Of a stretch of DNA of 11,943 bases, positions 1,562-3,539 are shown piece after piece. The position numbers were made by a program, and so were the translations under genes. The DNA comes from Myxococcales bacterium (GTDB lineage: Bacteria > Myxococcota_A > Polyangia > Polyangiales > Houyiibacteriaceae), in NCBI GenBank assembly GCA_020354595.1, contig CP070650.1:2641529-2653471 (forward strand), in the 5' to 3' direction. Within the stretch, counting starts at the first letter, position 1; each line of letters starts with the position of its first letter. The notes below the pieces were generated by a model. That model ran no database searches. It saw nothing but the letters and a program-made list of their open reading frames with translations, and was not told where the DNA came from.

Positions 1562-1756
1562 ATGACCAAGCAGCACGCTCGAACGATTCCCCAAGATCGC
1601 ACCCGTGAGCACCTCGAAAAGAAGCACGCCGAGTTAGCGGCACGCGTCGAGGCCCTCGATAGTCGTCTCAGTCTCACCCCGAGTGAAGAGCTCGAGCTGC
1701 ACCAGCTCAAAAAACAGAAACTTTGGGCGAAAGACGCCCTTCAGTCTTGCGACTGA
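1562..1756 (+). CDS. Small DUF465 / YdcH-family protein
   Basis: A 64-residue, highly charged, helical protein. The core HLEKKHAELAARVEAL and PSEELELHQLKKQKLWAKDAL fits the DUF465/YdcH pattern (two helices joined by a short L-T-P-S linker, the second ending in LKKxKLxxKD). The family is widespread in proteobacteria and has no firmly established role; small helical-hairpin oligomers are expected. The start is fixed by a very strong Shine-Dalgarno sequence, AGGGAGGTGA at 1551-1560, immediately before the ATG at 1562; an in-frame ATG at 1526 lies upstream of that SD and is unlikely. The gene is monocistronic: a divergent gene lies to the left and a strong terminator follows about 80 bp after the stop. 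The strong SD and terminator suggest substantial expression. Confidence 0.82.
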   Translation: MTKQHARTIPQDRTREHLEKKHAELAARVEALDSRLSLTPSEELELHQLKKQKLWAKDALQSCD

Positions 1757-1892: not shown

Positions 1893-1928
1893 AAAAAGCA
1901 AAATGGGCCACCCGAAGGCGGCCCATTT
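1893..1928 (-). terminator. Intrinsic terminator with UUCG tetraloop, minus strand
   Basis: Read on the minus strand, AAATGGGCCGCC (1928-1917) pairs with GGTGGCCCATTT (1912-1901) around a TTCG loop (1916-1913), then TGC and five T (1897-1893). As minus-strand RNA the 12-bp stem is complete because G1919 and T1910 make a G.U pair. As plus-strand RNA the same position is an A.C mismatch, and no T tract follows. This asymmetry shows the direction. No minus-strand protein gene lies upstream for it to terminate, because the next gene to the right is on the plus strand. Confidence 0.85.
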
Positions 1929-2072
1929 CAAACGAAAGAATCGATGCTACAGTAGTAAGCTAGGTAAATAAGTTAAGAAATATTTCCTGAGTTTACGGAG
2001 TTAAGGACGACCCATCGCCGCGCGGATGCCGGGCAAGCTGGAAAGTGCACGGCGTGGGTCTTAAGCAAGCGA
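1893..2072 (-). ncRNA. Candidate sigma-54-dependent small RNA (~180 nt)
   Basis: Boundaries are inferred from a sigma-54 promoter (-12 GC at 2085-2084, so +1 near 2072) and the UUCG-capped intrinsic terminator ending near 1893. Predicted architecture: (1) a 5' domain in which TTAAG-ACCCA-CGCCG (2064-2050) pairs with CGGCG, bulged A, TGGGT, bulged CGTC, CTTAA (2020-2001), closing a 29-nt apical region; (2) an AU-rich stretch (2000-1929, about one-third G+C by my count) with little strong pairing and two TTAACT copies; (3) the terminator hairpin. No convincing coding frame is present: ATG at 2017 gives four codons, and a GTG frame at 2050 gives 25 codons without a Shine-Dalgarno sequence. Known sigma-54-driven sRNAs such as Qrr and GlmY/GlmZ give precedent for the layout. 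I do not recognise the sequence as a named family. Target and activator are unknown. Confidence 0.65.
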
Positions 2073-2082
2073 CTCGGTACGT

Positions 2083-2099
2083 TGCAAACCCGGTGCCAA
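2083..2099 (-). promoter_or_regulatory. Sigma-54 (RpoN) -24/-12 promoter
   Basis: On the minus strand, TTGGCACCGGGTTTGCA spans 2099-2083. It contains TGGCAC, five spacer bases and TTGCA, the sigma-54 consensus. The invariant GG (2097-2096) and GC (2085-2084) are separated by exactly 10 bases. Expected start is about 12 bases beyond the GC, near 2072. It faces away from the zinc-ribbon gene and into gene-free DNA, so it should drive a non-coding transcript. Sigma-54 promoters need an enhancer-binding activator; none is encoded in this window. Confidence 0.78.
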
Positions 2100-2114
2100 C
2101 CTGTCAGAGGGGCA

Positions 2115-2128
2115 AAAACCAGGGTTTT
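2115..2128. repeat. Palindrome AAAACC-N2-GGTTTT
   Basis: A perfect 6-bp inverted repeat with a 2-bp spacer, centred about 50 bp upstream of the predicted sigma-54 start, just beyond the -24 element. It is A/T-rich at both ends. It could be a regulator or DNA-bending protein site; function is unknown. Confidence 0.4.
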
Positions 2129-2137
2129 CTTCACTGC

Positions 2138-2217
2138 CAGCGCTCTCAGTAGGACATTTCTGTCATGGCTCTGCACGCGATGTCGCGGTCGGGCTCAACC
2201 TGTCGGCTCGAGCGCTG
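2138..2217. repeat. Paired inverted copies of CAGCGCTC
   Basis: CAGCGCTC at 2138-2145 and its reverse complement GAGCGCTG at 2210-2217 each contain the self-palindrome AGCGCT. Their centres lie about 70 and 141 bp upstream of the predicted sigma-54 start, within the usual range for enhancer sites bound by sigma-54 activators. The role is inferred from position; an 8-bp match can arise by chance in GC-rich DNA. Confidence 0.35.
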
Positions 2218-2245: not shown

Positions 2246-2275
2246 TTGAAGTGGGCCAGGGGTCGTGCGTATGAT
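2246..2275 (+). promoter_or_regulatory. Sigma-70-like promoter for the zinc-ribbon membrane gene
   Basis: TTGAAG (2246-2251), an 18-bp spacer and TATGAT (2270-2275). Predicted start is near 2282, giving a short leader of about 19 nt to the ATG at 2301. This supports that start codon and places the promoter back-to-back with the sigma-54 unit on the minus strand. Confidence 0.5.
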
Positions 2276-2300: not shown

Positions 2301-3539
2301 ATGCCAACGTGCAAGAGCTGCAACGCGAAGGTGGTGAGGACGGACGCATTCTGCGGTACCTGCGGCGAGCCCGTGCCGGGGGCCAAGCCCGTCGTCCCGA
2401 TCGCGCGCCAGCCGAACCCGAGCGGCGTGCAGACGGCGACCGATCGGGTCACCGGCGCGTTTCCACCGCCGACCGCGACGGGCACCTCGGCGCGCGCCGT
2501 CGCGGTGGTGCCTCTCTCCGAGCCGGAAGAGCCCGAGCCGCCCGACACGGGGCTCAGTCGCACGACGATCCGGGAGCGAGAGCAGAGCGAGCCAGCGCCG
2601 GTGCTGCCGCTTCACCGGCGCAAGGACGGAACCGCGTCGCAGAGCGAGCTCGTCGAAGCGACCGCCGAGCCGCAAGCCGAGGAAGCACGGCTCTCGATGC
2701 CGGAGCGGGACACCAGCTTACCGAACGTGCCTGTGCCCGCCGGCCCACCGATTCTCGCGTCGGACCTGCTGCGTGAGCAAATGCGACCGTCGAGCCCGGG
2801 TGAGAAGACGCTTCGCGTCGTGACCGTGAGTCTCTGCGCGATCGGCGTCGTCGCCGCGCTACTCGCCGGCGGCGCGCATCCGCTGACATTCGTTTCCGCG
2901 GCGCTCCTCGTCATGATGGCGACCTTGGCGCTGACGCCGTCGTCCTATCGGGCGCGCGCGATCTCCCTCGCGCTCGCGGGCGCGACGGCTACGAGCGTCG
3001 CGCTCTGGCAACAGACTGTTCACGGTCTCGAACCGGAGAGCATCATCTTGGCGGGCGCGACGATTCTCCTGAGCGGCAGCCTGTTGTTTCGCGCCTATTA
3101 CCGAGGCGCCAGGTTCGCCCGGTTCGCAGTGGCTCTCGGCGTGGTTGCCCTCATCGCTTGGTTCGTCGTATCCGGCGGCCACGAAAGCCTCGTCATGTTG
3201 GAGGGGCATTGGCAGTCCTGGGCGCCGGCAACCACACACATGACCTTCAGCCTCCTGGCGCTGCTGTCGCTGATGGCCTTCATGGAGAGCAGCACGCGTG
3301 GCGGTTCGCACGTGTGGGCGGTCGCGCTTCTGGTTCTCTACGCGGTTCACATCAGCCTCATGATCGCGAGCGAGGTCTGGCCCGTGCCCGGCGTGCAGCC
3401 CACTATCCAAGGGCCGACCATCGCGACGTTGCTCACCGGAATGGTCGGGACGATCGTGGCAGGGTTGGCGCTGGCCCAGGTGTTCGTCGCGATCTACCAG
3501 AAGACGTCACGGGGCTTTTCGCGGCCAGGACGCGAGTAG
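2301..3539 (+). CDS. Zinc-ribbon protein with Pro/Glu-rich linker and ~8 TM segments
   Basis: A 412-aa protein of unknown function. It starts with a zinc ribbon of two CxxC knuckles (C4, C7, C18, C21; MPTCKSCNAK ... AFCGTCGEP). A long Pro/Ala/Glu-rich, probably disordered, cytoplasmic segment follows (about 25-168). The C-terminal half holds about eight hydrophobic helices: roughly 173-191, 195-212, 218-236, 247-267, 273-291, 311-328, 338-360 and 374-399. The ribbon at the extreme N-terminus implies the ATG at 2301 is right; a GGGGTGG sequence about nine bases upstream may serve as SD, and a promoter-like pair lies at 2246-2275. The layout of ribbon, linker and membrane domain is common in Myxococcota hypothetical proteins (general impression, not searched). 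Its 3' end overlaps the convergent CAP-domain gene by 33 bp. I do not recognise a transport or enzymatic motif. Confidence 0.85.
   Translation: MPTCKSCNAKVVRTDAFCGTCGEPVPGAKPVVPIARQPNPSGVQTATDRVTGAFPPPTATGTSARAVAVVPLSEPEEPEPPDTGLSRTTIREREQSEPAPVLPLHRRKDGTASQSELVEATAEPQAEEARLSMPERDTSLPNVPVPAGPPILASDLLREQMRPSSPGEKTLRVVTVSLCAIGVVAALLAGGAHPLTFVSAALLVMMATLALTPSSYRARAISLALAGATATSVALWQQTVHGLEPESIILAGATILLSGSLLFRAYYRGARFARFAVALGVVALIAWFVVSGGHESLVMLEGHWQSWAPATTHMTFSLLALLSLMAFMESSTRGGSHVWAVALLVLYAVHISLMIASEVWPVPGVQPTIQGPTIATLLTGMVGTIVAGLALAQVFVAIYQKTSRGFSRPGRE

Follow-up and report, generated by a model that had tools for sequence, protein, structure and literature searches.

A gene-free interval between a DUF465 gene and a divergent zinc-ribbon gene in the window (the whole stretch of DNA analysed, 11,943 nt) very likely holds a genuine sigma-54-type small RNA gene on its minus strand, and the product is probably an activator-gated, Hfq-independent regulatory RNA that acts via an exposed loop. 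The complete switch is preserved in the 19 examined genomes of the genus, so that a new regulatory RNA is very probable. As far as literature and database searches reach the gene is undescribed, and the titles and abstract openings of the open-licence literature yielded no paper naming this element. Its parts and immediate neighbours, in window coordinates, are as follows.

1562..1756, plus strand: gene for a DUF465 protein (Pfam PF04325), the convergent neighbour, conserved as such in 19/19 genomes.
1893..2072, minus strand: predicted small RNA of ~180 nt, both ends deduced from the spacing to the -12 element and the position of the terminator.
1894..1930, minus strand: intrinsic terminator with T-rich tail, a 14-pair stem kept among relatives.
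1930..1949, minus strand: conserved single-stranded 3' segment, TAGCATCGATTCTTTCGTTT.
2009..2060, minus strand: hairpin 1, a 13-pair stem around a ~23-nt loop, from the minimum free energy structure and the alignment of 19 sequences.
2025..2043, minus strand: nearly invariant loop core TTCCAGCTTGCCCGGCATC, a candidate seed or protein site by its conservation and unpaired probability.
2083..2099, minus strand: sigma-54 promoter TTGGCAC-N5-TTGCA (-24/-12), an exact motif match kept among relatives.
2153..2164, no strand assigned: probable activator (enhancer-binding protein) site, a conserved palindrome reading GACATTTCTGTC on the plus and GACAGAAATGTC on the minus strand.
2246..2275, plus strand: TTGAAG-N18-TATGAT, taken by motif as the sigma-70-type promoter from which the zinc-ribbon gene is divergently transcribed.
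2301..3539, plus strand: zinc-ribbon gene (412 aa), the divergent neighbour, an open reading frame whose leader is a weak target candidate.

The promoter, which the preliminary description had called near-perfect, is in fact exact: TGGCACCGGGTTTGCA at 2098-2083 of the minus strand matches TGGCAC-N5-TTGCA with no mismatch, and no other exact copy exists in the window, where matches with up to three mismatches number 23 (this site included) against 24.5 expected by chance. A stricter pattern, TTGGCAYN5TTGCW, occurs a single time in the 2.78-Mb assembly of the genome from which the window derives (66.8% complete), at this very site, with no occurrence of the reversed-pattern control; over the 19 genomes of the genus it occurs 70 times, 19 of them at the small RNA locus, vs 22 for the reversed control. 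The conserved GG and GC of the -24/-12 element are kept in all 19, TTGGCAY-N5-TTGCA standing at the locus in each, and the promoter block has a mean pairwise identity of 91%. Five of the 19 genomes (L206, L207, L208, L209 and L210) share another exact sigma-54-like site, TTGGCACGAGCGTTGCA, which recurs directly upstream of an open reading frame of ~200 aa with a signal-peptide-like start.

Beyond the parts recognised in the preliminary description, the unit includes the palindrome at 2153-2164, probably, judging by its sequence and placement, the activator site for the small RNA promoter. It takes the form GACA-N4-TGTC in 19/19 genomes, 52-54 nt upstream of TTGGCA, and the exact GACAGAAATGTC accompanies the promoter in 16, the remaining three showing one or two central base differences. 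Mean pairwise identity in the palindrome block (2166-2152) reaches 96%, vs 60% in the spacer leading to the promoter, and a palindrome of this type has one copy in the window. It lies ~80-90 bp upstream of the predicted RNA start, the usual place for an enhancer-binding protein. Between palindrome and promoter (window 2110-2130), many rows of the alignment contain an inverted repeat, AAAACC..GG.TTTT, which may mark a DNA bend or a further site for a protein.

The proposed dependence on sigma-54 and an activator gains from this placement and from the complement of proteins encoded in the genus. RpoN was detected in 17 of the 19 genomes, the two without a match being 79-80% complete, and the genome of origin has 19 matches to the sigma-54 activator domain above cut-off, 13 of them strong (one of these with an internal stop codon). 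No activator gene adjoins the small RNA at its locus. A scan of 65 kb of activator-gene loci in the same genome returned a single palindrome, GACATTAATGTC, located where an activator gene ends (L155:2435); about one is expected by chance. Besides the main rpoN, this genome also shows a second, partial match to the sigma-54 DNA-binding domain (G000:C1:55931-56191).

Counting 12 nt on from the C of the GC element puts the expected +1 at ~2072, and together with the terminator end at ~1893 this predicts an RNA of ~180 nt, the length originally proposed. Across the genus, between 145 and 196 nt separate +1 from the last base of the terminator stem. The intrinsic terminator claimed at the outset is found as a 14-pair stem (1930-1899, minus strand) followed by the tail CTTTTTC, paired in 99.1% of alignment cells over 19 genomes; in one of these (L018) it carries a tandem duplication of the first stem half, adding 13 bases. 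On the opposite strand a DUF465 terminator (1836-1862) faces that of the small RNA, forming a convergent terminator pair. The predicted RNA of the window folds with an energy z-score of -5.0 (0 of 200 shuffles as low), and all 19 genomes give values between -2.2 and -5.6. In hairpin 1 every letter-bearing cell of the stem is paired over the 19 sequences (100%), and one pair is changed on both sides, an amount of covariation reached by 443 of 500 shuffles; the percentage paired is reached by 43 and the covariation score by 36 of 500. The covariation signal is weak because the stems hardly vary. The loop (2047-2025) is 98% identical, and its core has a mean unpaired probability of 0.73-0.74 in each of the 19 genomes.

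An oriented alignment resolves the locus into near-identical blocks with drifting DNA in between, the parts of the unit being 83-98% identical vs 48-60% for the DNA separating them. Identity rises from 53% at positions -11 to -1 to 92% over the first 13 nt of the RNA, which supports a start site at ~2072. The hairpin arms stand at 85 and 92%, the 3' single strand (1950-1931) at 92% vs 48% in the linker, and the terminator at 83%; DNA upstream of the palindrome, including the promoter side of the zinc-ribbon gene, is 65% identical. The zinc-ribbon gene is only 45% identical at its fourfold-degenerate positions (18 of 19 genomes, leaving out G011, where the gene is split over two contigs), so that drift is far advanced and the conserved blocks are under selection. 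The preliminary description had named loss of the -24/-12 bases and the terminator stem among relatives as evidence against its minus-strand sigma-54-driven unit; instead promoter, stem and terminator are kept, at almost constant spacing, in 19/19 genomes in the interval between the DUF465 and zinc-ribbon genes, which supports the proposed unit.

Gene order is equally stable, with LolA, DUF465, the RNA and the zinc ribbon following one another in all 19 genomes and lolA lying ~0.5 kb downstream of the small RNA on its strand. The zinc-ribbon protein has no Pfam match; TATGAT precedes its start codon in 19/19 genomes, and its mRNA leader is short (~20-25 nt).

Within the sensitivity of these searches, the RNA appears to be specific to this genus. 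By blastn against 57 related genomes the unit was found in 19, which are all members of the genus including the genome of origin, and in none of 38 from other genera; identity in the 18 other members is 75-86%. Rfam and a custom model, both recommended earlier, were searched as well. No Rfam 15 covariance model, Qrr and GlmY/GlmZ being among its families, matches the small RNA region up to E = 1 (the window's two matches fall elsewhere), so membership of a known family was rejected. A model built from the RNA itself gave 20 matches among 33 genomes of the family, 19 of them strong, and under strict filters it recovered 19 of 183 genomes in the order, all within the genus. The one family match outside the genus (G020, E 0.07) was discarded as a relative: it lies inside a 475-aa open reading frame, presumably encoding adenylosuccinate lyase as judged by its signature, and has neither promoter nor loop motif nearby. 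Among 377 genomes of the phylum the loop sequence with at most one mismatch is confined to nine members of the genus; allowing two mismatches gives 24 genomes, these nine and 15 others, each of the latter with two mismatches, and the reversed control pattern hits 12 non-genus genomes vs 15 for the true one. Candidate relatives found by the loop pattern (L108, L109) were dismissed, their loci of 2.1-3.0 kb containing no sigma-54 motif or palindrome of the types looked for, as was a 29-nt blastn match (L020), whose locus in the same size range also has neither. In the sister genus g6 a zinc-ribbon orthologue is present (two genomes), but in the stretches of 5-6 kb examined (L173, L174) neither a palindrome nor such a promoter nor a similar RNA was found beside that gene; L174 has one loose TGGCC-type match more than 1 kb from it, and the blastn matches are weak (E 0.026 or more). 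Beyond the phylum the range was covered by Rfam and by plasmid records, and the latter returned no match.

What the RNA might act upon was approached through its loop. A search of the 19 genomes with the 18-nt loop complement found only the small RNA locus itself at fewer than two mismatches, and elsewhere seven matches at two mismatches vs 26 for the reversed control; a strongly complementary target was accordingly rejected, two-mismatch matches being fewer than in the control. The RNA could instead control its divergent neighbour: by pairing with the zinc-ribbon leader over ~12-15 nt (about -20 to -4), the loop would block translation, so that the activator signal would shut the protein off. 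We regard this as unlikely. The zinc-ribbon leader does pair best among those of five neighbours, with a mean duplex energy of -19.2 kcal/mol (11 distinct leaders, 14 loci) and 10 of 400 dinucleotide-shuffled loops doing as well (z -2.0), with identical or overlapping registers at 11 of 14 loci (loop ~4-19 with leader ~12-27); in all 19 genomes the duplex is better than the mean of shuffled leaders, the best (L014) reaching -26.4 kcal/mol with 1 of 300 shuffles as good. However, the number of equally good shuffled leaders ranges from 1 to 96 of 300 between genomes, GC-rich leaders pair readily (the reversed loop also scores z -0.7), the window, L022 and L033 use another register, and the CAP leader performs nearly as well (28 of 400 shuffled loops, compared with 219 for LolA, 285 for DUF465 and 259 for ArgJ). 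Significance falls to ~0.12 once five genes are allowed for, and the pairing is thus a lead, not a result. Of similarly low probability is a reading in which the RNA does not pair with mRNA but would act as a sponge, sequestering an RNA-binding protein or a different RNA via a repeated CUUGCYY at its 5' end, in the loop and in some linkers. The motif RCTTGCYY does recur two or three times per RNA in 19/19 genomes, in keeping with a sponge role, and a nearly invariant loop would fit a protein ligand; on the other hand, the motif was picked out post hoc, 10 of 19 genomes including the window have no copy in the linker, and L015 is devoid of the 5' copy.

The other alternatives carry far less weight. 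That the RNA is a leader of lolA, an attenuator whose terminator would be read through conditionally, is suggested by the constant presence of lolA downstream on the same strand (19/19), but the terminator is conserved and the oppositely oriented DUF465 gene stands in between, which makes this very improbable. No more credible is that the blocks are conserved DNA devoid of RNA function, for instance sites bound by proteins at the divergent zinc-ribbon promoter. Upstream regions of conserved promoters often contain such sites, yet this would leave unexplained a hairpin, a loop and a terminator that lie as far as 0.4 kb off, and would account neither for the rise in identity at the predicted 5' end nor for the drift between parts. 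As for coding capacity, the region had been described as gene-free, and indeed no gene-like open reading frame is found between the end of the DUF465 frame (1756) and the start of the zinc-ribbon frame (2301). One frame alone is shared widely: 18 of 19 genomes (all but L015) have it open for 22-53 codons, beginning at a TTG so close to the RNA 5' end (4-5 nt) that a Shine-Dalgarno site has no room; further frames in the RNA are common to fewer genomes or extend beyond the terminator. A sigma-54-driven leaderless mRNA encoding a peptide of 22-53 residues could be read into this frame, but changes in stem length split it into two peptides without relation to each other, one in 10 genomes and one in 8, with variable ends, and the most conserved part of the RNA is the loop, which is not codon-like. 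A small protein was rejected as the product for this reason: a protein from this region is unlikely on sequence grounds, and the leaderless mRNA is very unlikely to be the right explanation. Against a stand-alone small RNA gene itself one may set the weak covariation, the two genomes in which RpoN was not found, the slight chance of a leaderless TTG frame, and the lack of both a strongly complementary target and an adjacent activator gene.

The stand-alone gene would encode a trans-acting regulatory RNA, for which we infer transcription, activator binding and base pairing. An enhancer-binding activator would sit on GACAGAAATGTC and, by looping the DNA, open the sigma-54 polymerase held at TTGGCAC-N5-TTGCA; in the absence of the signal the gene would be silent. 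Looping by the activator, opening of the held polymerase and silence without signal are established sigma-54 biology. The RNA begun at ~2072 would fold into a rigid hairpin presenting the nearly invariant loop (CUUUCCAGCUUGCCCGGCAUC), carry a second conserved single strand, and end at the intrinsic terminator near 1893. Its loop may then pair with one or more target mRNAs, most simply over the ribosome-binding region, in an Hfq-independent manner; a search for Hfq gave no match in any of the 19 genomes of the genus, and matched 5 of 14 control genomes. A more ambitious version, in which a genus-specific, Hfq-independent switch silences the divergent zinc-ribbon protein and perhaps other genes through this loop, and which would amount to a new RNA family having an activator site of its own new kind and an adjacent gene as built-in target, is unlikely as a whole.

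Several known systems bear comparison. The Qrr small RNAs of vibrios are driven by sigma-54 and an activator, have multiple targets and need Hfq; the present RNA resembles them in its predicted sigma-54 and activator control, and differs in the lack of detected Hfq and of an Rfam match. It has a sigma-54 promoter, an upstream activator-site-like sequence and a small RNA product in common with GlmY of enterobacteria, which, in excerpts of the published accounts, has a sigma-54 promoter with upstream activator sites (PMC6075780), the QseF site being given as TGT-N12-ACA (PMC6075780) or TGTC-N10-GACA (PMC8745638). Unlike GlmY, whose gene adjoins qseEGF, the present RNA has a site of the form GACA-N4-TGTC, and TGTC-N10-GACA is absent from the window. 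Closest in organism is Pxr of Myxococcus xanthus (Cystobacterineae), the only sigma-54-driven myxobacterial small RNA met in a mostly open-licence literature. Excerpts of the relevant papers describe a sigma-54 promoter, predicted upstream of the gene and accompanied by an enhancer-binding region, a first stem-loop essential for function, and a host without Hfq (PMC5568312, PMC5684412), as well as a 108-nt gene that was traced to Cystobacterineae and is flanked by nla19 and a predicted NADH dehydrogenase gene (PMC5568312, PMC5684412, PMC11928866). Both are myxobacterial RNAs with a predicted sigma-54 promoter, a candidate enhancer region, a hairpin loop and no Hfq found, whereas the present one has LolA, DUF465 and zinc-ribbon neighbours (19/19) and no adjacent activator gene. 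The published pieces of Pxr (13-33 and 48-111, taken from primers for an inferred ancestor given in part of PMC5568312) score against it like shuffles, 499 and 66 of 500 being as high. Orthology was ruled out by locus (no nla19/pxrR neighbour) and by sequence, as far as those pieces go. By analogy with Pxr only, the RNA could be linked to development or nutrient status.

The mapped unit, comprising an activator site, a promoter, an RNA and a terminator, all predicted, is open to direct tests. If real, it would be a second, unrelated sigma-54-driven small RNA of myxobacteria, from another lineage and conserved in all species of its genus that were sampled. Such a second case would suggest that sigma-54 activators have recurrently acted through small RNAs in this group without Hfq.
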